From contig CANMOU010000001.1 in assembly GCA_947499555.1 (NCBI GenBank), positions 1,488,001 through 1,552,000 on the forward strand: DNA of 64,000 bases, written 5' to 3'. How positions within the stretch are numbered: the first letter of the stretch is position 1; each line of letters starts with the position of its first letter. The stretch is from an uncultured Roseovarius sp. GTDB taxonomy: Bacteria > Pseudomonadota > Alphaproteobacteria > Rhodobacterales > Rhodobacteraceae. A program made the translations under genes and the position numbers. Positions 39,600-60,782 of the stretch are shown piece after piece. Under the pieces are notes generated by a model. It did no database searches, had not been told where the DNA came from, and was given only the letters and a program-made list of their open reading frames with translations.

Positions 39600-39643
39600 A
39601 GCCGCCGCCCGCTGCATTAAACCGCGTTAATAGCGACATCCGC

Positions 39644-39684: not shown

Positions 39685-39729
39685 GCGGTTTTCCCGCAAA
39701 ATCAGCGTGTTAACCCTGATTCTCGGCTG

Positions 39730-41340: not shown

Positions 41341-41452
41341 GGCATTCTCCTGTCTTGGTCGCTTCACTTAGGCTTAGCGCCATTGGAACAGGTGGCAACG
41401 CCTGACGGTGCCAGAGATTGCAAATCCGTATGCATTTGGTCAAACTTTGGTC

Positions 41453-42882: not shown

Positions 42883-43289
42883 GACAAGCTCCTGCGCTCG
42901 GGTGGCCAGACCATGAGGATATCCGACTGACCCCTGCCTTCGCGGCGTTTCTCCACAAATCCATGGCGCGAATAAAACCGGCGCGCCTCGCGGTTGGTCT
43001 GGCGGACCCAGAGATCTATGGCGCCTGTCTGCATCTGCGCTTCCTGAAGCAGAATGCGCCCGATGCCCGAGCCCTGCGCACGCGGATGCACATAAAGTGC
43101 ATGCAACCGTCCGGCATCGCGCATGACAAATCCCGCCGGACCAGAGGCATCCGCAATCAACCTCACCCAGCCGCGCATCGTCGCCTTGAGCATAACCCAA
43201 AGGTCTGAGGTACCGTCTGACGGATGGTGCGCCCACAAGATGCGCAAGAGCCAGGGCACATGCCAGATTTGGGCAACTTGCGATGTCAT
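42879..43289 (-). CDS. GNAT-family N-acetyltransferase between ycjX and ycjF
   Basis: The product is 136 residues with a complete GNAT core: LHALYVHPRAQGSGIGRILLQEA (acetyl-CoA loop) and TNREARRFYSRHGFVE. Both ends overlap neighbours by 4 bases (ycjX upstream, ycjF downstream), so all three are translated together. The substrate is unknown; context suggests a role tied to the YcjX-YcjF pair. Confidence 0.85.
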   Translation of the reverse strand: MTSQVAQIWHVPWLLRILWAHHPSDGTSDLWVMLKATMRGWVRLIADASGPAGFVMRDAGRLHALYVHPRAQGSGIGRILLQEAQMQTGAIDLWVRQTNREARRFYSRHGFVEKRREGRGQSDILMVWPPERRSLS

Positions 43290-44713
43290 AGCCGGTCTCC
43301 GATCAAGAATTGCAGTGCCTTATCCAGCCGGATATGGGGTGGCCCCTCCCCCGGCTTGAGCGTCAGAGATGCCGGAGCAAACGTCATGACCTCATACTCG
43401 GCTTGCAGCCATTTTTCGGCCCCATCACGTGCTGGGTTAAGGATCTTTCCAGGATCATCGGGGAGTTTGCCGGGAAAAAAGGCCGCCTGCTTGCCCCGCT
43501 TGCCGGTTTTTGTCAGAAGCGTGCCTCGCACGCAGTTGAGCGTGTCTCCATCATGCGCCCGTGTCTCTTCCGTCGTGGCCCGGACCGAAGCCAGCGCCAA
43601 CGCGGCGGTCTGAGCCCCGGCAAAATCGGCCCTGTCGCGCGCATCCCGCAAAAGCGCCTCGGTGATTGCAGTCAGCTGCGCGTGTTGAGTGTGATGCAGG
43701 TGGTCTGCCTTGGTTGTCGCAAAAAGGATCTTATCCACCCGGCGCCCCAGGAAAATGCGGCTCAGGAAGGCATTGGTCCCGGGTCGGAATGCGGCGAGAA
43801 TATCGCGCATGGCCCGGCGCATATCCTCGACCGCCTGTGGCCCGGCATGAATTGCCCCAAGCGCGTCCACCAAAACCACCTGCCGGTCGATCCGCGCAAA
43901 ATGATCTCGAAAGAACGGCTTCACCACGTGAGATTTGTAGCTTTCAAATCGCCGCTCGAATTCCCGCCAGAGAGATTTGCGCGCCGATGAGGCCGGTTTG
44001 GGCAAGGGCGCGAAAGTCAGGACGGGTGAACCGGCAAGATCTCCGGGCAGAAGAAAGCGGCCAGGCGTGCAATCCGACAGACCTGCAGCGCGCGCCTTCG
44101 CCAGGTACCCGGTGTAGCTTTTCGCCAATTCCTGCGCTGTCCCTTCCTTGAGCCGGTCGCTTGGGTTCTGCGTGCGCATGAGATCAAGATAGGCCTTGGC
44201 CTCGGGCCTTGGTTCGATACGGCCAAGCGTGTCGTCGGACCATTCGGCGAAACTCTTGTCCAGCAAGGCAAGGTCGAGCAACCATTCTCCGGGGTAGTCC
44301 ACAATATCCAGATGTACCGTTCGTGGCCCCTGCAACCCGCCCAAAAGTCCCGATGGGCGTACCCGAAGCGACAGGCGCAGCTCCGAGATGGCACGCGTGC
44401 TCTCGGGCCAATGTGGCTGGTCCGCAGTCAGTGCGCCAAGATGTGTCTCATAGTCAAACCGGGGCAGCGTGTCATTGGGTTGAGGCTGCAGATATGCCGC
44501 TGTTATCCGCCCATCAGCCGCAGCAAGAAGCCCGGGCATTCGGCCGCGGTCCATCAGATTGGCGACCAGTGAGGTGATAAAGACGGTCTTTCCTGCCCGG
44601 CTCAGCCCGGTCACACCCAGCCGGATGACCGGTTCGCGAAACAAGGCCGAAAAAGTGCCGCCCACGCTGTCAAGCCCGCGCGTGACGCCGTCTGCGATCG
44701 TGGTGATAACCAA
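43286..44713 (-). CDS. ycjX: YcjX-family P-loop ATPase/GTPase (DUF463)
   Basis: The product is about 475 residues. The P-loop GLSRAGKT lies at 36-43 and LDIVDYPGEWLLDL gives a Walker B-like segment, with DYPGEWLLDLALL diagnostic of the family. The best start is TTG at 44713 (read as MVITTIADG), since AAGGGGG precedes it and homologues begin at this point. In-frame ATGs at 44758 and 44791 would add 15-26 residues with weaker sites. YcjX proteins are stress-related GTPase-like proteins of unclear function. Confidence 0.86.
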   Translation of the reverse strand: MVITTIADGVTRGLDSVGGTFSALFREPVIRLGVTGLSRAGKTVFITSLVANLMDRGRMPGLLAAADGRITAAYLQPQPNDTLPRFDYETHLGALTADQPHWPESTRAISELRLSLRVRPSGLLGGLQGPRTVHLDIVDYPGEWLLDLALLDKSFAEWSDDTLGRIEPRPEAKAYLDLMRTQNPSDRLKEGTAQELAKSYTGYLAKARAAGLSDCTPGRFLLPGDLAGSPVLTFAPLPKPASSARKSLWREFERRFESYKSHVVKPFFRDHFARIDRQVVLVDALGAIHAGPQAVEDMRRAMRDILAAFRPGTNAFLSRIFLGRRVDKILFATTKADHLHHTQHAQLTAITEALLRDARDRADFAGAQTAALALASVRATTEETRAHDGDTLNCVRGTLLTKTGKRGKQAAFFPGKLPDDPGKILNPARDGAEKWLQAEYEVMTFAPASLTLKPGEGPPHIRLDKALQFLIGDRL

Positions 44714-44860
44714 TGACTGCCCCCTTTCGCCTAAAGATAGGGCCAGCTCACCGGGCATGCCAGAGGCAAGTCGGGGGGGAATTTTGGGCATTTACGTATC
44801 TGCACTGGCGAACGATGGCGGGGATTGTGCGCAGGCAGGATCGCAGGCTAAAAGCCCGCC

Positions 44861-45631
44861 ATGCCACGCTACGCCTTGAAAATAGAATATAATGGAGCGC
44901 CCTTTGCTGGGTGGCAGAGACAGGCCGACCAGCCATCAGTTCAAGGGGCCATAGAAGCCGCGCTTGCCAAACTGCAGCCGGGGGCCCACACGATTGCGGC
45001 GGCCGGGCGAACCGATGCGGGCGTTCATGCGTTGGCGCAGGTCGCGCATTGCGACCTGGCCAAGGCTTGGGAACCGTTTCGTCTTTCCGAGGCGCTCAAT
45101 CACCACCTCAAACCGCTGCCTGTCGCGGTCTTGAACTGCGCCGCGGTGAACGCCGACTGGCATGCTCGCTTTTCTGCGGTTGAGCGACGGTATCTGTTTC
45201 GCATGCTCATGCGCAGGGCCCCTGCGACGCATGATGCAGGCCAGGTCTGGCAAGTGCCTGCTAATCTGGATGTCGATGCGATGCGAGAGGGAGCAGCCTA
45301 TCTCGTGGGGCACCACGATTTCACAACTTTTCGCTCAAGCATCTGCCAGGCCCAAAGCCCGTTGAAAACGCTTGATATGATCGACATTGAGCGGATCAAC
45401 GGCCTCAGCGGCCCGGAGGTGCAGTTTCGGCTGCGGGCACGCTCGTTTCTGCACAATCAGGTGCGCAGCATCGTCGGCACCCTGGAGCGCGTTGGCCGTG
45501 GCGCCTGGTCACCAAAAGATGTCAGCACCGCTCTGAAGGCCTGCGATCGCGCCGCCTGCGGCCCGGTCTGCCCCCCCCAAGGCCTTTATCTTGCTGCAGT
45601 CGAATACCCTGAAGACCCGTTCGCCGATTAA
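44861..45631 (+). CDS. truA: tRNA pseudouridine(38-40) synthase TruA
   Basis: TruA makes pseudouridine at positions 38-40 of tRNA anticodon arms. The catalytic Asp52 lies in [29 protein letters not shown] is the other family marker. Length is 256 residues, normal. It is divergent from ycjX and followed after 41 bases by a tRNA-Arg gene. Confidence 0.95.
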
Positions 45632-45672
45632 GCTTTGATCTTGTCTTCGCAGGCCGCTAAACCACGGTCAGC

Positions 45673-45749
45673 GGTCCCGTAGCTCAACTGGATAGAGCAG
45701 CTGACTTCTAATCAGCAGGTTGAGGGTTCGAGTCCTTCCGGGATCGCCA
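45673..45749 (+). tRNA. tRNA-Arg(TCT)
   Basis: This is a 77-base cloverleaf. The acceptor stem is GGTCCCG (45673-45679) with CGGGATC (45739-45745), including one G-U pair. T8 and TAGCTCA begin the D arm. The anticodon arm is GCTGA-CTTCTAA-TCAGC with anticodon TCT. The T arm is GAGGG-TTCGAGT-CCTTC. Discriminator G is followed by an encoded CCA (45747-45749). The anticodon reads AGA (arginine). Its last 20 bases recur at 56977-56996. Confidence 0.95.
45730..45749 (+). repeat. Candidate attachment site, left (3' end of tRNA-Arg)
   Basis: GAGTCCTTCCGGGATCGCCA matches 56977-56996 (GAGCCCTTCCAGGATCGCCA) at 18 of 20 positions in the same orientation. The repeat spans the T-arm 3' half, the acceptor 3' strand and CCA, which is the usual target of tyrosine-recombinase integration. 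The tRNA gene stays intact on this side. Confidence 0.6.
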
Positions 45750-46054
45750 GCAAAACCCATAACTTAAAGGACGTAAAGCGCCGCTTTCTTAGTCTTGGCT
45801 AACACATTTTTTGCTTGAGATTTTTTTCAAACACGCGAGCCAGATAGTTAGGACGGGCGGAAAGCGGAAGTTTTCTGTAGGTGCGAAAACATATGTTAGC
45901 GCTTGCGAAACGGACATTCGAAACGCGTAAAGTGTCCTGGCTTGGTTGCGTCGCCGAATACCGCATCTAATTTTAAAGCTGCTTCGCATTCAAGCTTCAA
46001 GTCACACTAAAGCAATACCCGGGTGCAAGACTGGGCGGAGACATGGAATCTGCC
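45750..46054. other. 305-base gene-free stretch after tRNA-Arg
   Basis: This is AT-richer than its surroundings. It contains T-runs (near 45809-45830) and a short AAAGC/GCTTT dyad near 45775. One small minus-strand frame (45789-45989) has no recognisable features. I see no gene, integrase fragment or clear terminator. Such a stretch next to a tRNA fits the junction of an inserted segment. Confidence 0.4.
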
Positions 46055-47425
46055 TTACGACAACACGCGTTCAATCGCCAGTCTGGTTTTGCCAACGATT
46101 TCATCCGCCTCGGCTTCGCTGAGGCAAAATGGTGGGGCAAACCCGATGATGTCGCCTTGGGGCATCGCCCGGGCGATTACGCCCATATCTGACATGGCGG
46201 CGGCTATATGAGGACCAACTTTGTCGACAGGATCAAAGAACGCACGTTCTTCACATTCGCGCACCAGTTCGACGGCGCATAACATGCCCTCTCCGCGCAC
46301 CTCTCCCACATGTGGATGATCGGCCAGCGCATCTTTCATGTGCACTGTCAAATAGCGCCCAACCGCACCGGCATTGGTGATCAGGTCAAGCGCATCAAGC
46401 AGTTTCAGATTGGCAACCCCGGCGGCGGCTCCAATCGGGTGTGCGGAATAGGTCCATCCATGTCCGATTGGGCCATTTTCATCCGTGCCTTGCTCCAACA
46501 CACGCCACATCCGGTCACTCACAATACTGCCTGACAGGGGCGCGTAGGCGCTGGTCAGCCCCTTGGCGATGGTGATGAGATCGGGTTTGATCCCGTAGTG
46601 ATCCGAACCAAACATGCTACCCAGACGTCCAAAACCTGTCACGACCTCATCAGCGATCAACAGGATATCATGCTTGTCGAGAACCGCTTGAATGGCGGGC
46701 CAATACCCTTCAGGCGGCGGGACAATCCCGCCTGTACCCAAAACCGGCTCACCGATAAAGGCGGCGATGGTATCAGCACCCTCCTGTGCGATGAGGTCTT
46801 CCAGCTTGGTAACGCAATGGGCCACGAATTCAGCTTCGGTTTGGTCCTGGTCAGCCCGGCGGAAGTAATACGGGGCTTCTGTGTGAACGACCTGGCCCAA
46901 AGGCAGATCAAATTTCTTGTGAAAGAGCTCCAGACCCGTCAGCGAGCCGGTCATCAGCCCCGAGCCATGATATCCACGCCAGCGGCTGATGATCTTCTTC
47001 TTTTCGGGACGTCCCAAGATGTTGTTGTAATACCAGATCAGCTTGATGTTCGTCTCGTTCGCGTCACTGCCCGACAGTCCAAAATAGACTTTACTCATAT
47101 GCTCAGGGGCGCGATCCAGGATCATCTTGGAGAGGGTGATACTGGCCTCGGTCCCATGCCCGACATAGGCGTGGTAATAGGCCAATTCCTTGGCTTGCTC
47201 GGCGATCGCTTCGGCAATTTCCGGGCGACCATAGCCCACATTCACACAATAAAGACCGGCAAAGGCATCCAGATGTTCATGACCCGCGCGATCTACGATA
47301 TAACATCCCGACCCGCCGGTGATCACTCGCTGAGCCAGATCACCTCGGGCAAACTCCGCCAGATGGGTTGAGGGATGGAAAAAGTTTTCGCGATCCCATT
47401 GCTCCAGCAGATCATTTTTCAGCAT
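46055..47425 (-). CDS. Class III pyridoxal-phosphate aminotransferase (DoeD-like)
   Basis: The product is 456 residues of fold type I. PLP-Lys288 lies in ITIAKGLTS, Asp259 in [10 protein letters not shown], and [10 protein letters not shown] and [13 protein letters not shown] are typical of omega-amino-acid transaminases. In ectoine breakdown the matching enzyme (DoeD) moves the gamma-amino group of 2,4-diaminobutyrate. Here it closes the minus-strand operon behind the eutC-like gene (84-base gap). The amino donor is inferred from context and could be any omega-amino acid or amine. Confidence 0.85.
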
Positions 47426-47509
47426 CTTTGAAACTCCCTGTCCCTCTTAGGGCCTCTTTGTTGAACCTTGACGGGCATGCGCCCCTCAAGAGCCGCTCAA
47501 ATATGTGTG

Positions 47510-48502
47510 TCAGCTCTTGATTGTCGTGCCATTCCCAGCGACCTCCGCCCTCTGGCGCGCCAGCGTTGCAACGGCCGTGTCCTGCACACCGGTTCCAGTC
47601 AGATCGCAAACGGTCAGGCTGCTTGTCGCGTCGTAGGATGGCAACGCTCCTGTGATCACGTCGCCAAGCTCCTGATACGGTGCGTCACCTGGCACAAGAC
47701 CGGCGGCAATTGCGGCGCGCAGCTCGCCAAGAACTTTGGTCTGGGACAAGCGGTCCGGCACATAGTGATCCGCCGCAGCAATCAGCGCCGGATCAATTTC
47801 GCATTTGTTGTCCTGATCAGAGCCAATGGCGATCACTAGTTGACCCTGTTTGAGGTGTCCCTTCAGGACGAGCGGCGCTTTTGAAGGGGTCGTGGTGACG
47901 ATCATATCTGCCGCTTGGGTCGCTTCGCTGATTTTTTGAGCGACGGATGCATCGACGCTTAACTCATTCGCAATGTCCTGTGCCGCGTCCTGAGCCTTTT
48001 CGGCGTCGCGTGCCCAAACCGTCACATGGCTGAGCGGACGCACCAGATGAATGGCTTCTGCTTGTAACCGGGCCTGCGCGCCGGCGCCGATGACACACAG
48101 ACGAGAGGCCTCCGCGCGTGCCAGGTGGCGGGCGGCCACTGCACCTGCCGCGGCGGTGCGAACCTCGGTCAGATAGCCGTTGTCCAGCAGCACCGCCTCG
48201 ACCTGTCCGGTTTTGGCCGAAAAGACGACCATGATGCCATTTGTCGACGGCAAGCCCATGGACGGATTATCATAAAATCCCGGAGACATCTTGACGGTAA
48301 AGCTCTCGGCCCCATGGATATGGGCGGTTTTGATATCAATCTCACCGTTGTTTTCGTGAATGCCCATAGACACGATTGGTGGCATTTCCACGCTACCACC
48401 GGCCAGAGCAGCAAAACCTTGTTCGATGCAATCAACAAGCGACAGATCCAGCGGCACCAGCGCCCGCAGTTCGGTTTCGGTCAATATCTTGATATCAGGC
48501 AT
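47510..48502 (-). CDS. eutC: EutC-like ornithine cyclodeaminase/mu-crystallin family protein
   Basis: The product is 330 residues with the NAD-binding motif LCVIGAGAQARLQAEAI and the family stretches SFTVKMSPGFYDNPSMGLPSTNGIMVVFSAKTG (substrate side) and DQDNKCEID. Members reduce or cyclise imines of amino acids; EutC in ectoine clusters belongs here. It overlaps the eutB-like gene by 8 bases. The start at 48502 (MPDIKIL) is chosen because family proteins begin there. Its exact reaction is not known. Confidence 0.83.
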   Translation of the reverse strand: MPDIKILTETELRALVPLDLSLVDCIEQGFAALAGGSVEMPPIVSMGIHENNGEIDIKTAHIHGAESFTVKMSPGFYDNPSMGLPSTNGIMVVFSAKTGQVEAVLLDNGYLTEVRTAAAGAVAARHLARAEASRLCVIGAGAQARLQAEAIHLVRPLSHVTVWARDAEKAQDAAQDIANELSVDASVAQKISEATQAADMIVTTTPSKAPLVLKGHLKQGQLVIAIGSDQDNKCEIDPALIAAADHYVPDRLSQTKVLGELRAAIAAGLVPGDAPYQELGDVITGALPSYDATSSLTVCDLTGTGVQDTAVATLARQRAEVAGNGTTIKS

Positions 48503-49487
48503 TGTTTTCCCCCGCCGTGACGTCCACATCCTCGCCAGATACAATTCGGTGATGCAACGCCATGTCAATGTTTCCACCGCTCAACAGCAGTGCGGTTTCG
48601 CCATCGGGTCTCACTTTGCCTGCAAGCAGGGCCGCAATACCGACCGAGCCTGACCCTTCAATAATCTGGTGTTCATGCCAATAGGCATGACGGATTGCGG
48701 CGGCAATCTCTACCTCGCTGACCAAAACGATGTCGTCCACCAAATCCCGCGTCATTTGAAACGTGTAGGCATTATCAAGCCCAATGCCCCCACCCAGACT
48801 GTCCGCCAGGGTCGAAAGCTCTGGCACCATGATCGGTTTGCCAGCTTTCTGGCAGGCATACATGGCCGCACCACGCTCCATCGAGACACCGATGACGCGG
48901 ATATCGGGACTACGCGCCTTTAACGCGGCGGCGACGCCAGAAACCAAACCTCCGCCGGAAAGCTGCACCAGAACGGTGGACAAGTCGGGCACATCCTCAA
49001 TAAGCTCCAGACCAAGCGTGCCTTGCCCGGCAATGATGTCGGGGTGATCAAAGGGCGGGATCATCGTCATCCCGTCTTCTGCCACTAACCGGTCCACTTC
49101 GATCTGCGCGTCATCCTGGCTTTGCCCGATGATGCGGACCTCTGCGCCCTGGGCGCGAATTCCGTCGATCTTGTTTTGCGGTACCAGTTGGGACATGGCC
49201 ACAATGCAGCGCACGTCGTTTTGCCGGGCCGCAAAGGCCAGACCACGTCCATGGTTGCCCGTGGACACACCGACCACACCTTTCGCGCGCTGATCATCTG
49301 ACAGGTTCAGAATGGCATTTGTCGCACCACGGATTTTGAACGATCCTGTGCGCTGCTGGTGCTCCAGTTTCAGATGCACCGGGACGCCCGCTGTCGTGCT
49401 CAGGCTTTCGGAGTGTTCGGTTCTGGTGCGATGAATTGTGCTGGCAATTCGGGCTTGCGCTGCCTCGATATCTGCAACACCGATCAT
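48495..49487 (-). CDS. eutB: EutB-like threonine/serine dehydratase family PLP enzyme
   Basis: The product is 330 residues of fold type II. The PLP lysine is K51 in RTGSFKIRGA, the phosphate-binding loop is VSTGNHGRGLAFAA, and the C-terminal glycine loop is LLLSGGNIDM. In hydroxyectoine clusters EutB is proposed to dehydrate a 3-hydroxylated diaminobutyrate intermediate. That role is inference here. The ATG overlaps the Rieske gene stop as ATGA. Confidence 0.84.
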   Translation of the reverse strand: MIGVADIEAAQARIASTIHRTRTEHSESLSTTAGVPVHLKLEHQQRTGSFKIRGATNAILNLSDDQRAKGVVGVSTGNHGRGLAFAARQNDVRCIVAMSQLVPQNKIDGIRAQGAEVRIIGQSQDDAQIEVDRLVAEDGMTMIPPFDHPDIIAGQGTLGLELIEDVPDLSTVLVQLSGGGLVSGVAAALKARSPDIRVIGVSMERGAAMYACQKAGKPIMVPELSTLADSLGGGIGLDNAYTFQMTRDLVDDIVLVSEVEIAAAIRHAYWHEHQIIEGSGSVGIAALLAGKVRPDGETALLLSGGNIDMALHHRIVSGEDVDVTAGENNA

Positions 49488-50659
49488 TCTGCCACCTTGG
49501 AAGCGGGAGCCGCTGGCGCTGTGAGCATCCTTGCCAGATAGCGTTGGAATTCCCAAATGGTCTGCTCTTTTGGTGAGAGGCGCCCCGGCTGCGCCGACAG
49601 GGCCGCGGCATTACGCGCGATGGCCGACGTGATTGGTTTGTCCTCGTCATTGATCGCGTGAAAGCTGGCCTTCAGCTCGTCCACACGCTCGTCAAATTCC
49701 GCGCCTTGCGGCATGGCGTCAGGGTGAACATCAACGCCCCAAAAGACGCGCACTTTGTCCGTTTCAACCGGCATCAGGGACATCCAGAACGTCCGCTCGG
49801 CCGACACAGACGCCATCTGCGCCGGAAACGCGCCAAAGAGCGGCACGCTGTTGACCTCATCCTCGGTCAACTTCGGATTGGGGTTTGCCATTGCTTCGCT
49901 ATATTCAAACGCCACGCCGGGATTTCGCCCTTGTGTATATAGGCAATAGCCCGGACCGCCGGTCACGACATGGGCGTGTTGGGTGGGTAGAACTGGCTCA
50001 ACAGTTTTGCTGTGCACGGCAAACAAGTGGTAAGGCTCCATGAAATTCTGAAAGAGAATTTTCCAGTTGGTGTCCCAAATTTCATCAACCCGAAACAAGG
50101 TGCGATAACTCTCGACATCATAGTTGGCCAGAAGCTCTGTCAAAGGCGCCAATCGCGGCGCCAAAGGCTTTGCCAAAGGGTCGAGATTGACGTAAACCCA
50201 GCCCAGCCATTCTTCGACGGCGAATTGCGGCAAATGACAGTCTCTCTTGTCGAAGTTGTCCCGCATATGGGCCGCCCCGATCAGCTGGCCATCCAATGTG
50301 TAGGTCCAGGCATGGTAGGGACAGGTGATTTTGCCACCAATGGTACCCTCGCCCTCAAGCAGACTCATCATCCGGTGGCGGCAAATATTGGACATTGCGC
50401 GCAACACACCATCATGGTCGCGCAGGATGATGACCTCATCGCGGCTGATGGTCATCACCCGGTAATCGCCGGGCTGTTCGAACTCATCCGAACGACCCAC
50501 ACAAATCCATTCCCGATTGAAGATCACATCCCGTTCCAGTTCGAGAAACGCCTGCGATGTATAGACTTGGGGTGGTGTCGCCTCGGACTGATCTTCGGGC
50601 AAAGAGGCATTCGCGGACACCGCATCGAGCAATTCGGAAAGTGGCATATTGGGCTGCAT
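49484..50659 (-). CDS. Rieske non-haem iron oxygenase, alpha subunit type
   Basis: The product is 391 residues. The Rieske [2Fe-2S] ligands are C93, H95 (NICRHRM), C113 and H116 (TCPYHAWTY). The mononuclear iron motif is NFMEPYHLFAVH with H211 and H216. Domain layout resembles ring-hydroxylating and quaternary-amine demethylating oxygenases such as GbcA-type enzymes. No ferredoxin or reductase gene is seen nearby, so electrons must come from elsewhere. It lies 16 bases after the ArgE-like gene. The substrate is unknown; it is probably the osmolyte handled by this operon. Confidence 0.88.
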   Translation of the reverse strand: MQPNMPLSELLDAVSANASLPEDQSEATPPQVYTSQAFLELERDVIFNREWICVGRSDEFEQPGDYRVMTISRDEVIILRDHDGVLRAMSNICRHRMMSLLEGEGTIGGKITCPYHAWTYTLDGQLIGAAHMRDNFDKRDCHLPQFAVEEWLGWVYVNLDPLAKPLAPRLAPLTELLANYDVESYRTLFRVDEIWDTNWKILFQNFMEPYHLFAVHSKTVEPVLPTQHAHVVTGGPGYCLYTQGRNPGVAFEYSEAMANPNPKLTEDEVNSVPLFGAFPAQMASVSAERTFWMSLMPVETDKVRVFWGVDVHPDAMPQGAEFDERVDELKASFHAINDEDKPITSAIARNAAALSAQPGRLSPKEQTIWEFQRYLARMLTAPAAPASKVAE

Positions 50660-50675
50660 GACAGGACCTCAATCG

Positions 50676-51875
50676 CTAGGTTTGGCGCGCGTGAGACAAT
50701 CGCGTCGTGAGCTTGCGCAGAAAATCCAACCCCTGCGCCAGTTCTTCGACTTCAATATATTCATCGGCCTTGTGGGCCCGGCTGATGTCGCCGGGACCAA
50801 AGACGACGGTCGAATAATCGGCATCACTGAAATACCCCGCATCAGTCCCGAATGAAACCACACCGGTGTCGTTCAACCCCGTAATCGCGCTCACAAATTC
50901 CGCCGCACGCGCTGCGTTGCGATCATCAAGCGGCGGAACGGCGATTTCGGTAATTATCCGGATCTCCGCCGTGTCGCAGACGGCCCGCATAGCTGGCAGG
51001 ATGTCCTGTGCGGCAAAGGCTTCGATCTCGGAAATCGCAAGGGATCCGTCCTCGCCCGGCATCGGACGGTATTCCCAATCGAAGTTGCACCAACCGGCAG
51101 TCGCGTTTCGGGCCGCGCCACCTTCTATCGTGCCAACATTGAAGGTGGGGTAAGGCGGGCTGTAAAACGACCCTTTGACAGGGCTGGCCGCACGTTGCGC
51201 GTTCATTTCTTCGATCTTCGAGATCAGTTTCATCGCCGCCGAGATTGCGTTGACGCCTCGCCTTGGGTCGCAAGAATGCGCCTCTTGCCCTTTGATTTCC
51301 GTGCGCATCTCATAGCCGCCCTTATGGCCGGTCACGATCTTCATCTGCGTCGGTTCGCCGACAATGACGATCTCGGGGCGATAGGCAAACCCCGACAGGC
51401 TTTCGAGCAGGACGGGCATCCCCAGCCCGCCGGTTTCCTCGTCAAAGGTAAATGCGATATGAATTGGCTTGGTCAGGGGTGCGGCTTTGAACACAGGCAC
51501 CGAGGCCAGAACACAGGCCAGAAACCCCTTCATATCAACCGAACCGCGTCCATAAAGCCTGTTGCCTTTGCGGGTCAGCTTGAAAGGATCGCTGGACCAG
51601 TCCTGACCCTCTACCGGGACAACATCTGTATGTCCGTTCAAGACGACCCCGCCGTCGATTTCTGGCCCTATCGTCGCGAAGATGTTCGCGCGCTCTTTTG
51701 TCTCGTCAAAACTCAGAGTGGATGAAATGCCATGCTGTGTCAGATAATCCTGAATATACCCGACAATACCATGGGTCGGGCGGCCCGAAACGCTCTCAAA
51801 GCCCACCAGAGCCTCAAGAATATCTATGGCCGCATCCAGTGTTTGGGGCAGGACTGCATCCTCAGACGGCATCAT
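50676..51875 (-). CDS. M20-family amidohydrolase, ArgE-like deacylase
   Basis: The product is 399 residues and is a zinc-dependent M20 peptidase-fold enzyme. Metal motifs are LNGHTDVVPVEGQDW, GRGSVDMKG, DEETGG and the C-terminal HKADEYIEVEEL. It is close to acetylornithine deacetylase. In the Eut/Doe pathway an N-acetyl-diaminobutyrate deacetylase is needed; the usual DoeB/EutE is of another family, so this enzyme may replace it. The ATG overlaps the GntR stop by 4 bases. Confidence 0.87.
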   Translation of the reverse strand: MMPSEDAVLPQTLDAAIDILEALVGFESVSGRPTHGIVGYIQDYLTQHGISSTLSFDETKERANIFATIGPEIDGGVVLNGHTDVVPVEGQDWSSDPFKLTRKGNRLYGRGSVDMKGFLACVLASVPVFKAAPLTKPIHIAFTFDEETGGLGMPVLLESLSGFAYRPEIVIVGEPTQMKIVTGHKGGYEMRTEIKGQEAHSCDPRRGVNAISAAMKLISKIEEMNAQRAASPVKGSFYSPPYPTFNVGTIEGGAARNATAGWCNFDWEYRPMPGEDGSLAISEIEAFAAQDILPAMRAVCDTAEIRIITEIAVPPLDDRNAARAAEFVSAITGLNDTGVVSFGTDAGYFSDADYSTVVFGPGDISRAHKADEYIEVEELAQGLDFLRKLTTRLSHARQT

Positions 51876-52570
51876 GGTTCGGCCAGCAGTCGACCAAGAA
51901 GGGTCAACATCCGCTGAAGATCGATGCTGCGGTAGTGCCCAACACTGCGAATGTCATTGTCCACCATGGCCGCCCGGATTTCTTCTAACTCGTTGAGCTG
52001 ACCGGCATGCGCCTTGTCCCAACCGAACTGAGGAAGAAACGTGTACCAAATGCGCGCCACCCGGTAATACATCAGCTCGGTGATCTCACAGAGCGGCGCA
52101 TTGCCCGTCAGATTGGACAGTAACTGTTGCAGATCATTCGCGATGAGGGCCAGTTCATCAAAGGACCCTGTTTTGTCGGCCAGATTCCGGGTGCGGTTAA
52201 CCAACGCGTCTATCGTAGCGATATGATCCGGCGTGATTTCAACCGGCGACAGCTCTCCCATCATTTCAGCCAGACGTTTGCGCAGGTCATAAATCTGTTT
52301 GAAGGTCTTCAGATCAATGTCGGTCACCATTGTGCCAACGCCATTCTTGATCGTCACCAGCCCCATGAACTCAAGCCGGTGAAAGACCCGGCGGATCGGT
52401 GTGCGGCTGATACCGAACTCTTTGGCCAGCGCCCCCTCGCTCAGCACGGTTCCGGGTGGATAGGTCAACAGGCAGATCCGGTCCCGCAACTCGCAATAGA
52501 TCCGGTCAAACCGTTCAGCGCCGGTTTCGTCTTCTGATACGGCAATAGCCGTCTCGGCTATTTTGACCAT
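51872..52570 (-). CDS. GntR-family (FadR/FCD-type) transcriptional regulator
   Basis: The product is 232 residues. The N-terminal winged helix-turn-helix has LTYPPGTVLSEGALAKEFGISRTPIRRVFHRLE. The C-terminal part (about 85-230) is all-helical and FCD-like. It is the first gene of the minus-strand operon and divergent from the plus-strand operon, so it probably represses both until its ligand is present. A matching palindrome lies at 52678-52687. It is not of the MocR type seen in classic ectoine clusters (EnuR). Confidence 0.88.
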   Translation of the reverse strand: MVKIAETAIAVSEDETGAERFDRIYCELRDRICLLTYPPGTVLSEGALAKEFGISRTPIRRVFHRLEFMGLVTIKNGVGTMVTDIDLKTFKQIYDLRKRLAEMMGELSPVEITPDHIATIDALVNRTRNLADKTGSFDELALIANDLQQLLSNLTGNAPLCEITELMYYRVARIWYTFLPQFGWDKAHAGQLNELEEIRAAMVDNDIRSVGHYRSIDLQRMLTLLGRLLAEP

Positions 52571-52677
52571 CGGCTTCCCCCGGTTGAGGTTTCTGCGTTT
52601 CGCGCGATTGCATTGTGCGCGGAGTCATCTCCCATTGACACGACTCAGCTTTAGGGGCGAGCATAGCTAAAATCAAG

Positions 52678-52687
52678 CTGTATACAG
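52678..52687. promoter_or_regulatory. Candidate GntR operator, CTGTATACAG
   Basis: This is a perfect 10-base palindrome in the 125-base divergent intergenic region, 9 bases before the ATG of the EutA-like gene. The TGTATACA core matches the type of operator often found for FCD-group GntR regulators. The start codon of the plus-strand gene lies very close, so transcription may start at or inside it. Confidence 0.55.
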
Positions 52688-52695
52688 GCTATGCC

Positions 52696-53487
52696 ATGAC
52701 AGATGTCTTCCAAACAGCGGAAACGACAAGGTTTCAAAGCACTTCGGTCTGCGATGACATTGCGCTTGATGAGGGCACTGGGAAGTATCGGATCGGGCTG
52801 ATCGTTCTCAGCAACGATTACACGGTTGAACGCGATTTCATGAACATGCGGCCAAACAATGATGTCGCGATATTTACCACACGGATTGCTAACACACCCG
52901 ACTGCAACGTCCACTCCTTGCGGAAAATGGCACCAGGGATTGCAGACGCGGCAAAGCTTTTGGTGCCGGAGGGGCACCTGAGCACAATTGCCTACGCGTG
53001 CACATCAGGCTCTGTGGTGATCGGCTATGAAGCCATTTGCACCCACATCAATTCCGTTCGTCCCGAAGCAACCTGCATCACACCGATCACCGCATCGCTG
53101 GCCGCACTTGATGCGTTTGGGGCACAAAAGCTTGCGGTTCTGACGCCCTATGTGGATGAGGTCAATGCGGTCATTGCCGACTATCTGCGAGCCGCGGGCA
53201 AGCAGATCTGCGCCTTTTCGTCATTTCTTATCGAAGACAACGAAGACATGGCTGCTCTCACCGGTGAGGCGATTTTCCAGGCGGCCGTAAAGTCCGACAG
53301 ACCCGAGGCAGATGCCCTGTTCATTTCCTGCACTGCGATCCGCGCGGTCGAGGTTATCGACCGGATAGAACAAGCCTTGGGCAAACCGGTTGTCACTGCC
53401 AATCAGGCCATGTTCTGGCAGACCCTTCGGGCTGCGGGCTGTGACGCCAGCGTAGAGGGCTATGGCAAGTTGTTGCGTCAGTTTTAG
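52696..53487 (+). CDS. eutA: EutA-like Asp/Glu racemase superfamily protein
   Basis: The product is 263 residues of the aspartate/glutamate racemase and maleate isomerase fold. The paired catalytic cysteines are C102 (AYACTSGSVVIGY) and C212 (FISCTAIRAVEV). The family includes EutA of ectoine utilisation clusters, maleate isomerase and arylmalonate decarboxylase. The probable reaction is isomerisation or racemisation of a pathway intermediate. It is the first gene of the plus-strand operon and starts only 9 bases after the palindromic operator candidate. Confidence 0.82.
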   Translation: MTDVFQTAETTRFQSTSVCDDIALDEGTGKYRIGLIVLSNDYTVERDFMNMRPNNDVAIFTTRIANTPDCNVHSLRKMAPGIADAAKLLVPEGHLSTIAYACTSGSVVIGYEAICTHINSVRPEATCITPITASLAALDAFGAQKLAVLTPYVDEVNAVIADYLRAAGKQICAFSSFLIEDNEDMAALTGEAIFQAAVKSDRPEADALFISCTAIRAVEVIDRIEQALGKPVVTANQAMFWQTLRAAGCDASVEGYGKLLRQF

Positions 53488-53508
53488 CCGGGTTTTTGGG
53501 AGCATGCG

Positions 53509-54390
53509 ATGAACCACAATGAGATATTGTCCAACCCTCCTCGGGTTCTCAGCCAGGACGAGCGGTCCTTTTATTTCGAACAAGGCTACGTCGTAAAAGA
53601 GAAGGCTGTCGGACAGGATTGGCTGGATCGACTGAATGCGGCCATGGCGGCCCTGGTAGAGACAACTCGCAGCATGACATGCTCAACCCAGACCTATGAT
53701 CTGGACGCGGGCCACACAGCCGAAAACCCCAGACTGCGCCGCATTGCCTATCTCGATGATCTCGATCCGGTGTTCTGGGACTTTTGCAAGGATTCACCCC
53801 TCACTGATCTGGCCGCTGATCTGCTTGGTCCGAACGTCCGGTTTCGCGAATGCATGATTAACTTCAAATGGGCCGGGGGCGGTCAGGAGGTTAAGTGGCA
53901 TCAGGATTTTCCCTTCTACCCGCTGACCAATACGACTGTGGCGCAGTTCCTTGTCTGTCTCAACGATGTTGGCCCCGATCAAGGCCCTTTGCAGGTTGTC
54001 CCCAAAAGCCATGAGGGGCCGTTCTATGACCACTATGATCAGGACGACAATTGGCTGGGCTACATCCAGGACGACAAGCTGGCCGAGGCAGGGCTGGACA
54101 CGGCGGTGGACTTAACCGGACCTGCAGGCACAATCACCGTGCATCACTGCGCGACCTTGCACGCCTCTCGCGCTAATCTGAGCAAGCTGGGTCGCCCGGT
54201 GCTGATTGTCACCTACTGCGCCTGCGACGCGGTTGGATACACAGCCGTGACCTATCCCTCGTCGAACTGCCTCAAGGTCGTGCGCGGCCAGGAAACGAAA
54301 TTCGCCCGGCTGGAGCCGATGAACATGCGCATGCCACCAGATTGGTCCGATGGCTACACCTCCATCTTTGACCATCAGGAAGAGGCCTAA
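53509..54390 (+). CDS. Phytanoyl-CoA dioxygenase (PhyH) family oxygenase 1
   Basis: The product is 293 residues with a cupin-fold Fe(II)/2-oxoglutarate oxygenase layout. Metal ligands H131 and D133 lie in VKWHQDF and the distal His is about 218 (ATLHAS). It is not a canonical ectoine hydroxylase: the EctD signature with its FxWHSDFETWH pattern is absent. It may hydroxylate or demethylate the pathway substrate. It lies 21 bases after the EutA-like gene and 3 bases before the EutD-like gene. Confidence 0.85.
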   Translation: MNHNEILSNPPRVLSQDERSFYFEQGYVVKEKAVGQDWLDRLNAAMAALVETTRSMTCSTQTYDLDAGHTAENPRLRRIAYLDDLDPVFWDFCKDSPLTDLAADLLGPNVRFRECMINFKWAGGGQEVKWHQDFPFYPLTNTTVAQFLVCLNDVGPDQGPLQVVPKSHEGPFYDHYDQDDNWLGYIQDDKLAEAGLDTAVDLTGPAGTITVHHCATLHASRANLSKLGRPVLIVTYCACDAVGYTAVTYPSSNCLKVVRGQETKFARLEPMNMRMPPDWSDGYTSIFDHQEEA

Positions 54391-54393
54391 ACT

Positions 54394-55569
54394 ATGGCAC
54401 CACCGTTTTCCCGCGAAGAATACGCGGACCGACTGACCCGCGTCCGAAATGCCATGCAGTCTAAAGAGCTGGATGCCCTAGTGATTGGTGATCCGACCAA
54501 TATCAACTGGCTGACGGGATATGATGCCTGGTCGTTCTACACCCCGCAGATCATGGTGGTCGGTCTGGAGCTTAACCCAACCTGGATGGGTCGTGAAATG
54601 GATGCGGGAGCGGCGGCATTTACAACGTATTTACCACCCGAACAGTTGGTTCCCTTCCCCGAGACGCATGTGCAACAGGCAGAGTTTCACGCCGCTCAGT
54701 ATATGGGCGACTGGATGAAATCGAAGGGGCTGAATCGCAAGCGCATCGGTTATGAAAGTGACGTCTATTTCCTGACGCCGGCGGCGGTCGGGCATTTGAT
54801 GGGCCGCTTGCCTGACAGCGACTGGAGCGATTGTGGCTTGCTCGTGAACTGGCAACGCCTGACCAAGAGCCCCGCTGAGATAGCAATGCTGCAACAGGCT
54901 TCGGTCATTGCGGGCAAAGCCATGCAGACGGCCTATGACGGCGTGCGACCGGGGGTGCGGCAATGCGATCTGATGGCGGATGTCGTGGCCGCTCAGATTC
55001 GCGGCACGCCGGAGTTTGGCGGGGACCAAACCGCCCTGCACCCGCTGGTTCTCGCCGGAGAGGCGGCCTCGACCGCCCATCCGATGTGGACCGATGTGCC
55101 GTTTGAGAAGGACCAGACCATCGCCTTTGAGCTGGGCGGGTGTCGCAAACGCTACAATGCGGGCCTGGCGCGCACTGTGCATCTGGGCGAGCCACCAAAG
55201 ATATTGATGGACACCGCCAAAGCCGTGGGCGAAGGCATGGATGAAGTTCTATCCGCCATGAAGGCCGGGGCACTGTGCTGTGATGTACATGCCGCATGGC
55301 AGGCGGTTCTGGATCAATACGGTCTCGAGAAGAAAAGCCGCATCGGCTATTCGATTGGTCTTGGGTATTCGCCAGACTGGGGCGAGCACACGATCAGCTT
55401 CCGTCCCGATGACAGCACCGTACTGCCGGAAAACGCCGTGGTGCATATCATTTTGGGGATGTGGATGGACGGCTGGGGCATGGAATTGAGCGAGACAATC
55501 CATGTGCGCGCCAATGATGCAGTGTGCCTCACGCAATTCCCGCGCGACGTTCACGTGATCGACGTGTGA
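54394..55569 (+). CDS. eutD: EutD/DoeA-like ectoine hydrolase (M24 family)
   Basis: The product is 391 residues. The N-terminal creatinase-like domain has PTNINWLTGYDAWSFYTPQ. The C-terminal pita-bread domain has FELGGCRKRYNAGLARTVHLG and IGYSIGLGYSPDWGEHTISFRP. These two stretches match ectoine hydrolase (DoeA/EutD) closely in layout. The usual M24 metal residues are not kept: N255-A256 replaces the second Asp and Tyr319 replaces the His of GHG. This is the feature that separates ectoine-hydrolase-like enzymes from Xaa-Pro peptidases. It probably opens a cyclic amidine ring. Confidence 0.85.
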   Translation: MAPPFSREEYADRLTRVRNAMQSKELDALVIGDPTNINWLTGYDAWSFYTPQIMVVGLELNPTWMGREMDAGAAAFTTYLPPEQLVPFPETHVQQAEFHAAQYMGDWMKSKGLNRKRIGYESDVYFLTPAAVGHLMGRLPDSDWSDCGLLVNWQRLTKSPAEIAMLQQASVIAGKAMQTAYDGVRPGVRQCDLMADVVAAQIRGTPEFGGDQTALHPLVLAGEAASTAHPMWTDVPFEKDQTIAFELGGCRKRYNAGLARTVHLGEPPKILMDTAKAVGEGMDEVLSAMKAGALCCDVHAAWQAVLDQYGLEKKSRIGYSIGLGYSPDWGEHTISFRPDDSTVLPENAVVHIILGMWMDGWGMELSETIHVRANDAVCLTQFPRDVHVIDV

Positions 55570-55582
55570 AAGGAAAAAAGAC

Positions 55583-56410
55583 ATGGGAAAAAAGCTCACC
55601 CAAGCCCAGACCGACGCCTTCCACCGGGATGGGTTCGTTTCTCCCATAGATGTATTCTCCGAGGCCGAGGCCCTGCGCCTGCGCAAGGAACTTGAAGCCG
55701 CCGAGGCAAAATGGCCCGAAGCTTTTCAGGGGGCTGCGCGCAACAACGCGCATCTGAACCTGATGTGTCTAGATGAGATCGTGCACAACCCGGTGCTTGT
55801 GGATGCAATTGAGGATCTCATCGGGCCTGACATCCTCAACTATGGAACGGTATTGTTCATCAAAGAACCCAACGATCCGGGCTTTGTCAGCTGGCATCAG
55901 GACGCACGTTACATGGGGTTGGAACCTCATGTCGGCATCACCGCCTGGGTCGCTCTGACAGAGGCCAATGATGAGAATGGCTGCATGCAGATGATCCCCG
56001 GCAGCCACGGAGAGATCAGAGACCACAACGACACGTTTGGCGAAGAAAACATCCTGACGCGCGGGCAAGAAGTAGAGAACGTGGATGCAAGCACGGCTGT
56101 GTCCACGGCCTTGCGCCCCGGTCAGATGTCGATTCACAGCGCCCGGGTCATTCACAGTTCACAACCCAACCGCAGCAATGACCGGCGCATCGGCTTTGTC
56201 ATTCAGCCTTTCATGCCCCCCCATGTGCAGCAGATGATCACACCAACAGGCGCGCAACTTGTAAGGGGCAGCGATCCGTTTGGAAACTTTGAACACCTGC
56301 CCCGTCCCACATCCGATATGGATCCCAGTGATATCAAAAAACGCGATTGGGTGAATGAAACCTGGTCAGACATCCTCTATCATGGCGCCAAGATGCGACG
56401 AGATTATTAG
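55583..56410 (+). CDS. Phytanoyl-CoA dioxygenase (PhyH) family oxygenase 2
   Basis: The product is 275 residues. The iron ligands are H105 and D107 (VSWHQDARY) and a distal His near 191 (RVIHSSQPNRSNDRR), with the Arg-rich stretch as the 2-oxoglutarate anchor. It belongs to the same family as oxygenase 1 but is clearly a different protein. It starts 13 bases after the EutD-like gene with AAAGGAAAAAAG ahead, so it is the last intact gene of the plus-strand operon. Confidence 0.86.
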   Translation: MGKKLTQAQTDAFHRDGFVSPIDVFSEAEALRLRKELEAAEAKWPEAFQGAARNNAHLNLMCLDEIVHNPVLVDAIEDLIGPDILNYGTVLFIKEPNDPGFVSWHQDARYMGLEPHVGITAWVALTEANDENGCMQMIPGSHGEIRDHNDTFGEENILTRGQEVENVDASTAVSTALRPGQMSIHSARVIHSSQPNRSNDRRIGFVIQPFMPPHVQQMITPTGAQLVRGSDPFGNFEHLPRPTSDMDPSDIKKRDWVNETWSDILYHGAKMRRDY

Positions 56411-56469
56411 TAAGGCGAATGAACGTTCGGCCTGCACCCATCGCAAGCAGCCTTTGAGAGAAAGTCAAA

Positions 56470-56658
56470 GTGCCACAAAACATCCGGAAAACCGCGGTTA
56501 TACCGGGCGATGGTCTCGGGAAAGAAACGGTGATGAGCCGCATCGGCGTGGACCGAAGAGTGGTCCGCATGCCCGGCAATATGCAGCTGGGTGGCATCCG
56601 CCTTGGTGACAGTATCGGAGCGACAGCGCCGGCCCGTGTCTCTGACGAGTTGAACTAA
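56470..56658 (+). pseudogene. Fragment of a beta-decarboxylating dehydrogenase
   Basis: A GTG-started frame reads VPQNIRKTAVIPGDGLGKETV, which resembles the first 20 residues of isopropylmalate/tartrate/isocitrate dehydrogenases (KIAVIPGDGIGKEV). After that, similarity is lost and the frame stops after 62 codons, far short of the family length of about 350. It is likely the broken remains of a former operon gene beside the right end of the island. Confidence 0.45.
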
Positions 56659-56702
56659 AAGCAACTTGTGGCGCTAATCGATGATCTGACACCGCAGATC
56701 GG

Positions 56703-57002
56703 TTATACTTTGTCACGTTGCCTGGTCTGGTTCGGCCAACGGTTAAAGTCGTCCTTTACTTGGTTAACGTCTTTCGATTTCCCCCACCGCTGACCATCAG
56801 AATACTGTGCTGATTTGTAAGCACATCCGTTCGTTGTGTCGTATGGAAACACTTCCCAGCCGAGATTCTTCGCATACCATTGCGCGGTGGGGGAAATCGA
56901 AAAACACACATTGTTTTCAATGCCCCTGTTTTGGTCATGGGGGCAAATTAACAGATTGTTTTGATTGGAAGATATGGAGCCCTTCCAGGATCGCCATGAC
57001 AC
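56703..57002 (-). CDS. Unassigned small ORF in degraded region
   Basis: A 99-codon minus-strand frame with a GTG start reads NVCFSISPTAQWYAKNLGWEVFPYDTTNGCAYKSAQYSD in part. It is rich in aromatic residues, unlike a random shadow frame. I do not recognise it. It contains both arms of the 19-bp inverted repeat and its start lies over the right att-like repeat. It may be a remnant or not a gene at all. Confidence 0.2.
   Translation of the reverse strand: MSWRSWKGSISSNQNNLLICPHDQNRGIENNVCFSISPTAQWYAKNLGWEVFPYDTTNGCAYKSAQYSDGQRWGKSKDVNQVKDDFNRWPNQTRQRDKV
56772..56902. repeat. 19-bp perfect inverted repeat with 93-base spacer
   Basis: The left arm is TTTCGATTTCCCCCACCGC (56772-56790). The right arm, GCGGTGGGGGAAATCGAAA (56884-56902), is its exact reverse complement. 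The spacer (56791-56883) has no T-tract or known motif. The whole block is 131 bases and lies in the AT-richer, gene-poor part of the island end. It could be a MITE-like insertion, an RNA hairpin or the scar of an inversion. Confidence 0.75.
56977..56996 (+). repeat. Candidate attachment site, right
   Basis: GAGCCCTTCCAGGATCGCCA is a direct copy, with two mismatches, of the 3' end of tRNA-Arg at 45730-45749. It ends 50 bases before the alcohol dehydrogenase stop codon, so it lies exactly between the degraded island end and the next operon. The flanking bases do not extend the tRNA match. Confidence 0.55.
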
Positions 57003-57046
57003 ATCAGGCCTTTGACAAGGCCGAGCTGGAACAGAGCAGTACCGTC

Positions 57047-58192
57047 TTACATCAGCGCCTCAAAGAGCGCGCGCGTGTTCGACGCCGTCATCTCAACAGG
57101 ATTGCCTCCGGTGCTTGGATCCCGCAATGCCGCATCGACAAGGCTGTCAATATCGGGGTCTTTGACACCCAGCTCTGTCAAAGTTTTTGGTATGCTCATC
57201 GCAGCGTTAAGCTTGTCCACATAGCGGCAAAACCCGTCGAACCCTCCGTCTATATCGAGATAGGCCGCGACCGACGCGAACCGGTCTCTGATGGCATCGG
57301 CATTGAATTTCAGGACGGCAGGCATGCAGACCGCGTTGGTTGTTCCGTGATGCGTATGATGCATCGCGCCAATAGGATGGCTAAGTGCGTGGATTGCCCC
57401 GAGGCCTTTTTGAAAGGCCGTCGCCCCCATCGCCGCAGCGCTCATCATGTTCGCGCGTGCTTCGATATCTGTGCCATCCTCGTACGCCCGGGGCAGATAG
57501 TCCTTTACGAGGCGCATTCCTTCCAGCGCGATGCCCTGGCTCATTGGGTGATAATGCGGCGAGCTATAGGCCTCGACACAATGCGCAAAAGCGTCAAGAC
57601 CGGTGCCAGCGGTGATGAACCTCGGCATGCCAACGGTCAGCTCCGGATCGGCAATGACCACGGCAGGGAGCATTTTGGGATAGAAGATAATCTTCTTTTC
57701 CTGGCTGGCAGAATTTGTGATCACACTTGCGCGCCCCACCTCCGAACCAGTGCCGGCTGTGGTCGGCACCGCCACAACAGGCGCAATACCGTCCGGATTG
57801 GCGCGGGTCCACCAATCGCCGATATCCTCAAAATCCCAGATCGGTCGGGTTTGGCCGGCCATGAACGCAATCACTTTGCCAAGATCAAGACCTGAGCCAC
57901 CGCCGAAGGCGATGACGCCGTCAAAACCACCTTCGCGGTAGGCTTGCACCCCGGCCTCGGCATTCTTGTCTGTCGGGTTTGGATCAACTTCAGCAAATAG
58001 CGCCTTGCCCAGCCCGGCCTTGTCCAGCAATGACAACGTGCGGGTTGTGATCTCGTTCTCAGCAAGGCCCCTGTCCGTTACCAATAGGGGCTTTTTTATG
58101 CCAGCCGCTAAGCAGGCATCGGCAATCTCGGCAATACGCCCTGCGCCAAAACGGATTGGGTTGGGGTAGCTCCAGTTCGCGGTCAGTGTCAT
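57047..58192 (-). CDS. Iron-containing alcohol dehydrogenase
   Basis: The product is 381 residues from the ATG at 58192 (MTLTANWSYP), which follows AAGAAGG. An ATG at 58237 overlapping the glutamine-synthetase-like stop would add 15 residues. NAD-binding GGGSGLDLGK is present and the metal ligands are Asp and His in DAFAHCVEAY and two His in IHALSHPIGAMHHTHHG. This family oxidises alcohols to aldehydes. It is the last gene of the minus-strand catabolic unit and is probably paired with the ligase next to it. Confidence 0.88.
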   Translation of the reverse strand: MTLTANWSYPNPIRFGAGRIAEIADACLAAGIKKPLLVTDRGLAENEITTRTLSLLDKAGLGKALFAEVDPNPTDKNAEAGVQAYREGGFDGVIAFGGGSGLDLGKVIAFMAGQTRPIWDFEDIGDWWTRANPDGIAPVVAVPTTAGTGSEVGRASVITNSASQEKKIIFYPKMLPAVVIADPELTVGMPRFITAGTGLDAFAHCVEAYSSPHYHPMSQGIALEGMRLVKDYLPRAYEDGTDIEARANMMSAAAMGATAFQKGLGAIHALSHPIGAMHHTHHGTTNAVCMPAVLKFNADAIRDRFASVAAYLDIDGGFDGFCRYVDKLNAAMSIPKTLTELGVKDPDIDSLVDAALRDPSTGGNPVEMTASNTRALFEALM

Positions 58193-58233
58193 GGCATCAC
58201 CTTCTTCCAGATATGGGGCGTTCTGTGTCTCAT

Positions 58234-59592: not shown

Positions 59593-59627
59593 TCACTGCT
59601 GCCTAATATCTCAGAGTAGAAGGACGC

Positions 59628-59690
59628 GCCCTCGGAGCTTTCCCGAGGGCCTCCCATTTTCTGGATGCCCCGGATTGGAGCCGGGGCATC
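59628..59690 (-). terminator. Tandem hairpins after the TRAP substrate-binding gene
   Basis: Two strong stems lie back to back. GATGCCCCGG with CCGGGGCATC (59664-59690) comes first, then GCCCTCGG with CCGAGGGC (59628-59650). Read on the minus strand they follow the dctP-like stop directly and precede the glutamine-synthetase-like gene. They lack a long T-run, so they may stabilise or cut the mRNA rather than end it, allowing unequal levels of binding protein and enzymes. Confidence 0.6.
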
Positions 59691-59696
59691 TGGAGA

Positions 59697-60728: not shown

Positions 60729-60782
60729 TTTGATGTCTCCTTGTTGGTACTCGATTGGTCTCAATGCTTCTTTTGTTGATGA

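Follow-up and report, generated by a model that had tools for sequence, protein, structure and literature searches.

Which solute does a gene cluster serve that resembles the genes for ectoine breakdown but departs from them at several steps? We examined such a locus in a 64,000-nucleotide stretch of an uncultured Roseovarius sp. (GCA_947499555.1, contig CANMOU010000001.1, positions 1,488,001 to 1,552,000), hereafter the window, in whose coordinates positions are given. At 46055-56410 ten open reading frames (ORFs) form two divergent operons around 52.6 kb, in which homologues of the ectoine-catabolic proteins EutA, EutB, EutC and EutD stand together with a Rieske oxygenase and two PhyH-family dioxygenases. 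We find that the EutD-like hydrolase falls in a clade apart from the canonical ectoine hydrolases DoeA/EutD. On sequence grounds we give an even chance to the reading that an upper module would oxidise and open a substituted ectoine or acyl-diaminobutyrate and feed an ordinary lower (hydroxy)ectoine pathway.

The EutD-like hydrolase, its clade and its neighbours

A scan of genome contigs yielded 151 EutD relatives, of which 80, at 55-96% identity, were kept; those closest to the window protein, at 96% and 89%, come from Roseovarius. A tree of 102 rows puts the window protein and 75 relatives on one side of a branch with support 96/100; the canonical group consists of 14 rows that include DoeA 6twk and the EutD from a complete canonical cluster (support 100/99), and six rows make up a third group, here named EutD2 (support 100/100). 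Several other rows lie on long branches, their own places being unsure, and five of the 80 loci (L093, L100, L108, L129, L165) gave no row. All 76 clade rows carry a different residue at six positions that do not vary among 10 canonical rows (H264 to N, P266 to G, S268 to A, L239 to P, P229 to L and H181 to M). The equivalents of DoeA Y52, H238, E255, R326 and H361 are kept, of which we take Y52, E255 and R326 to be catalytic, so that the window protein has the catalytic skeleton of DoeA in common and differs from it in the six swapped positions and in its separate clade. Its best solved relative is DoeA itself (PDB 6twk/6yo9, presumably from Halomonas elongata; 305 bits). With the ectoine hydrolase model TIGR02993, whose cut-off is 613, clade proteins reach about 380-430 bits. 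Judged by this phylogeny, which the earlier note had proposed as a check and which returned a separate clade, the EutD-like protein stands outside the line of descent of the canonical ectoine hydrolases.

The leftward operon runs in the order GntR-M20-Rieske-EutB-EutC-aminotransferase and the rightward one EutA-PhyH1-EutD-like-PhyH2. Most neighbouring genes overlap by a few bases or lie at most 21 apart, with a gap of 84 between EutC and the aminotransferase. The EutC start was placed at 48502 (listed ORF: 48577) and the EutB start at 49487 (listed ORF: 49556) because alignment to the family profiles begins at residue 24-29 of the ORFs as listed; the moved starts result in short gene overlaps. 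Family profiles bear out the gene content read in the earlier note, namely EutA-, EutB-, EutC- and EutD-like proteins, an aminotransferase, an M20 enzyme, an FCD GntR regulator, a Rieske protein and two PhyH proteins. In the following list and below, score pairs give profile bits and family cut-off.

46055-47425, minus strand: class III aminotransferase, Atf-like (NF005684, 822.8/687)
47510-48502, minus strand: EutC-like imine reductase/cyclodeaminase, OCD (NF006141, 473.4/408, above cut-off; TIGR02992, 461.5/471.65, just below)
48495-49487, minus strand: EutB dehydratase (TIGR02991, 522.4/413.35, above cut-off)
49484-50659, minus strand: Rieske oxygenase alpha subunit, CntA/GbcA-like (Pfam Rieske and Ring_hydroxyl_A)
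50676-51875, minus strand: M20 ArgE-like deacylase (TIGR01892, 363/297.7, above cut-off)
51872-52570, minus strand: FCD-type GntR regulator (PF00392 and PF07729)
52678-52687, no strand: palindrome CTGTATACAG, probable GntR operator, between the operons
52696-53487, plus strand: EutA-like Asp/Glu-racemase-superfamily protein (PF17645; TIGR02990, 234/318, below cut-off)
53509-54390, plus strand: PhyH1, Fe(II)/2-oxoglutarate oxygenase (PF05721)
54394-55569, plus strand: EutD-like M24 hydrolase, outside canonical DoeA/EutD (TIGR02993, 391/613, below cut-off)
55583-56410, plus strand: PhyH2, Fe(II)/2-oxoglutarate oxygenase (PF05721)

Next to the 80 clade loci we set 29 canonical-like EutD loci (39-44% identity), taken from 30 non-clade genomes with G066 left out, not all of which are proven ectoine hydrolase loci, EutE being nearby in 16 of the 29. 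Genes were counted by tblastn; ORF-based counts, which hid genes in GC-rich loci, were dropped. Near clade EutD genes, M20 relatives were found in 42/80 loci (41 at at least 39% identity and one at 25%) compared with 2/29 near canonical-like ones, and any PhyH in 27/80 compared with 0/29. For the canonical genes the counts are EutE in 6/80 and 16/29 loci, EnuR in 0/80 and 9/29, UehA in 0/80 and 5/29, EutA in 8/80 and 8/29, EutB in 2/80 and 11/29, EutC in 1/80 and 12/29, and the aminotransferase in 5/80 and 12/29, respectively. A relative of the FCD GntR regulator is found in 7/80 clade loci. When the 21 SAR116-type loci are removed, M20 remains in 21/59 and PhyH in 27/59 (Fisher 0.004 and 3e-6, the loci being related and not independent).

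That the ten genes are a loose chance set of unrelated catabolic genes without a single pathway is very improbable. L086 has all ten of them, L087 has seven, L093 six and L091 an overlapping set, the spacing is tight and a motif described below is common to several loci; since gene order is conserved in other genomes, the cluster is more than a chance assembly. What a chance set would explain is the mosaic of origins, with EutB and the aminotransferase canonical and EutD and EutA not, and the flanks: window positions 36001-46000 and 56411-64000 found no tblastx match (1e-10) in L086, L087, L089, L091 or L093, and blastn matched no more than 146 bases, beside the aminotransferase in L086. A tRNA-Arg gene (45673-45749) adjoins the cluster, and a tRNA-linked island was rejected, as no such tRNA stands in seven related loci. 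A second tRNA call, by ARAGORN, at 36653-36724 (tRNA-Tyr, anticodon ATA) lies within ORF 34900-38040 and is probably false. At 57047-62108 the window holds genes for an iron alcohol dehydrogenase, a glutamine-synthetase-like protein (GlnA) and DctP/DctM TRAP proteins; this run was rejected as the transporter of the cluster, relatives of the alcohol dehydrogenase, GlnA and DctP being absent in L086 and L087.

The clade is hosted by Roseovarius, SAR116/Puniceispirillum, SUP05, Granulosicoccaceae, Acidimicrobiales and others, and its surroundings differ between these lineages, for which reason a single substrate read from gene context was rejected. An agmatinase-like gene (TIGR01230, 220.7/174.3 in L117) stands near EutD-M20 in 15 SAR116-type loci, FdrA (505.4/433 in L142) near EutD in four SUP05/Arenicellales-type metagenome-assembled genomes (L141, L142, L144, L146), a different use of the clade, and a sulfatase with an NMT1-type binding protein in Granulosicoccaceae. 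In the Shinella plasmids L166 (11077-14350) and L167, DUF1989, an M24 protein at 50% to the window EutD and M20 are adjacent, and DUF1989 is also near EutD in L125, L127 and L134. These agmatinase-like, FdrA and DUF1989 neighbours would suit a clade acting on a cyclic guanidine, a ureide or another heterocycle, with the window cluster as one of several uses. We hold this to be improbable, as all three genes are absent from the window cluster, the EutB/EutC/Atf end does not fit, the agmatinase near the Roseovarius albus cluster belongs to a polyamine gene set, and some Acidimicrobiales loci carry true EutE and canonical EutD instead.

The third group was also seen in the window genome, where EutD2 is an orphan among housekeeping genes (L009, 9062-10243). 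In relatives it lies inside the cluster (L091, L096, L099, L125, L241), where a single pathway may employ two M24 hydrolases.

Canonical ectoine genes and the lower pathway

The likeliest rival holds that the cluster serves ordinary ectoine/5-hydroxyectoine catabolism through a divergent EutD, with M20 in place of EutE and accessory oxygenases that would hydroxylate ectoine into the EutB/EutC branch or handle another hydroxyectoine stereoisomer. In its favour, the window genome (99.91% complete) holds no EutE over the cut-off (best match 60.1/402.7), M20 also stands in the canonical-type EutD loci L085, L187 and L147, the DoeA catalytic skeleton is kept, and EutB and the aminotransferase group with canonical proteins. 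With queries from L078, the best EnuR match in the window genome reached 27% identity and UehA gave no match at E <= 1e-20, an empty result that alone shows little. The claims of the earlier note that the deacylase is M20 and not DoeB/EutE, and that the regulator is FCD GntR and not of the EnuR type, both hold.

Evidence from other genomes makes this rival rather unlikely. In the Roseovarius albus genome (L087), one contig carries EnuR-UehA-EutA-EutB-EutC-EutD(785 bits)-EutE(600 bits), a second EutB-EutC-EutD-Ssd-Atf and a third the present cluster. Because the canonical ectoine genes are present as well, the cluster is not a mere replacement in R. albus, and because canonical EutD, EutE, EnuR and UehA occur in addition to it, a different substrate can be argued. 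Among the ten genomes that we chose from the 80 loci to search for canonical genes, those of L089 (Roseovarius) and L158 (Acidimicrobiaceae) likewise contain canonical EutD and EutE that score over the cut-offs, and in the other seven EutE was not over its cut-off. Both kinds of EutD also occur within one locus in L158, L160, L162 and L147, which would be redundant under ordinary catabolism, and the 29 canonical-like loci have no PhyH relative nearby. In the Acidimicrobiales loci L158 (2129-11173) and L162 we observe PhyH, the clade EutD, a cystathionine-gamma-synthase-family gene, the canonical-type EutD and EutE together, with a P450 also in L158. Elsewhere in the window genome, at 3200-10771 of L008, a canonical-group EutD stands with a GntR-type regulator, a class III aminotransferase and a polyamine-type ABC transporter, and gamma-butyrobetaine-dioxygenase-like and HD-domain-like genes are nearby (these neighbours were named by eye).

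We then consider the lower half of the pathway. The aminotransferase is 77-79% identical to those of the canonical loci L077 and L078 and nested among canonical-cluster ones (Shimodaira-Hasegawa-like approximate likelihood-ratio test, SH-aLRT, 98), and EutB is 68% identical to EutB of L078 and falls together with 5 of the 11 canonical EutB rows (SH-aLRT 99). EutC shares 53% identity with EutC of L078 and 72% with that of R. albus L233. EutA lies apart from 8 canonical EutA rows, at the weaker support of SH-aLRT 89; the EutA, EutB and aminotransferase trees are short searches without bootstrap. Since both EutB and the aminotransferase fall with their canonical ectoine counterparts, the pathway probably ends in the ordinary way. 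The osmolyte pathway suggested as possible in the earlier note is thus borne out in part: the EutD clade, the M20 and PhyH linkage and the coexistence in R. albus support it, and the canonical EutB and aminotransferase do not.

EutB, EutC and Atf lie inside the cluster in the window and L086, in genomes without EutE over the cut-off. In R. albus they are sited elsewhere and the present cluster is without them. In L091 and L096 a beta-eliminating-lyase/threonine-aldolase-type gene is inside the cluster (PF01212 in L091; a 78% relative in L096), and these genomes have no EutB better than 36%. EutB-type and threonine-aldolase-type enzymes both act on beta-hydroxy-alpha-amino acids. In six of eight close-relative genomes of our choosing (the window, L086-L089, L091, L093 and L096), EutB at at least 73% or a threonine-aldolase-type gene was found. 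From this we infer that, in the close group, the junction compound would be a beta-hydroxy-alpha-amino acid, most simply 3-hydroxy-diaminobutyrate. The junction is limited to that group because three distant genomes (SAR116, SUP05, Acidimicrobiaceae) have no EutB better than 37%.

Compared with the canonical ectoine/5-hydroxyectoine cluster, the window cluster shares EutA-, EutB-, EutC- and EutD-like proteins, an aminotransferase, a GntR-superfamily regulator and a likely convergence on diaminobutyrate. It differs in that EutD is outside the group, EutA is under the cut-off, M20 stands in for EutE, the regulator is FCD GntR and not MocR-type EnuR, UehA gave no match and three oxygenases are added. 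The main text of PMC13188858 describes putative clusters with two eutD genes and without eutE in Thermodesulfobacteriota and Bacillota, which its authors call tentative. These have in common with the window EutD homologues without EutE and, in Bacillota, an amidohydrolase (abgB); the words Rieske, phytanoyl, dioxygenase, M20 and SAR116 do not appear in that main text. In its Roseovarius/Nitratireductor clade C, uehPQM or ehuBCDA are present, in contrast to the clade described here, where UehA was found in 0/80 loci. In the openly licensed literature, we found no paper joining 'ectoine hydrolase' with 'Rieske', nor ectoine with Rieske and eutB.

Oxygenases, deacylase and regulator

PhyH1 and EutD are no more than 300 bp apart at 17 of 23 places and share a strand at 15 of these 17, and this proximity is seen in Alphaproteobacteria, Gammaproteobacteria and Actinomycetota. 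The best solved chain for PhyH1 is EctD, matched weakly (49.6 bits), and TIGR02408 stays below its cut-off (50.6/336.5). Its catalytic residues H131, D133, H218 and R229 are invariant in 17 rows. For PhyH2 the best solved chain is 6zyk (126.3 bits), and the catalytic residues H105, D107, H191 and R202 are invariant in 16 rows.

The Rieske protein has CntA as its best solved chain (132.6 bits), followed by 3vca and 4qup, which we take to be Stc2. Its best NCBIfam family is GbcA, presumably among the Group V Rieske oxygenases, at 136/670, far under the cut-off. It keeps the equivalent of Glu205 (MEPYH, aligned with CntA). According to PMC10952381, Group V quaternary-ammonium Rieske oxygenases such as CntA and Stc2 have a bridging Glu205 and a Cys206/Cys209 pair, of which the window protein shares the first and not the second. 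In the 294 other genomes of the family, a relative at 63% occurs in one (G270), followed by a full-length one at 41% and two partial ones at 47-50%. Near the clade EutD, a Rieske relative was found in 9/80 loci and near canonical-like EutD in 0/29. As it reaches at least 78% in only 6/80 loci, we read the Rieske protein as accessory and not as part of the core of the cluster. The oxygenases that the earlier note saw as built into the operons are in this sense upheld for PhyH and reduced in standing for the Rieske protein.

Within ~14 kb of the Rieske relative, G270 carries a Fer2/NAD reductase, a protein with the dimethylglycine-dehydrogenase (DMGDH) domain set, SoxA (1239/1164) and diaminopropionate ammonia-lyase (472.9/276). 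A second Roseovarius cluster, L241, holds EutB, PhyH1, EutA, M20, EutD2 and a protein with the DMGDH domain set, and no Rieske gene within the 20 kb covered. The likeness to CntA and these neighbours in G270 and L241 favour oxidative N-demethylation as the predicted reaction.

The M20 ArgE-like enzyme probably takes the place of DoeB/EutE. Upstream of EutA, the palindrome CTGTATACAG occurs nowhere else in the 3.73 Mb genome. Among seven relatives' loci inspected, the motif precedes an EutA or EutD gene in L086, L087, L093 and L088, and it was not found in L091, L096 and L099. It is a probable operator of the GntR regulator.

A proposed pathway and its meaning

Under the reading of an oxidising and ring-opening upper module, the substrate would be a substituted ectoine or N-acyl-2,4-diaminobutyrate, perhaps with N-methyl groups as in a betaine. 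PhyH1, PhyH2 and the Rieske protein would oxidise it by hydroxylation and/or oxidative N-demethylation, the EutD-like hydrolase would open an amidine or amide bond, EutA would adjust a stereocentre and the M20 enzyme would take off the acyl group. By orthology, EutB and EutC would convert beta-hydroxy-diaminobutyrate to diaminobutyrate, and the aminotransferase would lead on to aspartate semialdehyde, with the FCD GntR regulator possibly controlling both operons from the one palindrome. The substrate, the order of steps and every reaction are our inferences from the sequences.

Several observations weigh against this proposal. At the places of Cys206 and Cys209 the Rieske protein has P and L. 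With the G270 protein as query, no dedicated Rieske reductase was found in the window genome at E <= 1e-20, where one weak PF00175 match occurs. DMGDH-type genes are not enriched near the clade EutD (2/80 compared with 1/29). The canonical-group EutD elsewhere in the window genome scores 584 bits (cut-off 613), and no transporter gene lies within the ten-gene cluster. Because EutB and EutC are near so few of the 80 clade EutD genes, the tie to the lower ectoine pathway rests on the close relatives, and even there the best EutB of the L093 genome is at 53% and the L088 genome has neither EutB (E <= 1e-50) nor a threonine-aldolase-type gene. Furthermore, M20 is missing from the L093 locus, and no EutE in that genome exceeds the cut-off. 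In the openly licensed literature the terms methylectoine, N-methyl ectoine, dihydroxyectoine and norectoine did not occur, and 'ectoine betaine' occurred once.

More broadly, and more tentatively, Roseovarius, SAR116, SUP05 and other marine bacteria may consume an ectoine-like nutrient that has yet to be described, such as an N-methylated or betaine-type ectoine or an acyl-diaminobutyrate. They would do so with a dedicated clade of hydrolases together with oxygenases, on a route parallel to and separate from ectoine catabolism and sometimes in the same cell. At their scores against the ectoine hydrolase model, the clade proteins can be mistaken for those of ectoine degraders. Should the clade have a different substrate, estimates of ectoine use by SAR116, SUP05 and allied groups would come out too high, and a nutrient would be missed. 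Since both types of cluster are present in Roseovarius albus CECT 7450, the question is directly testable there.

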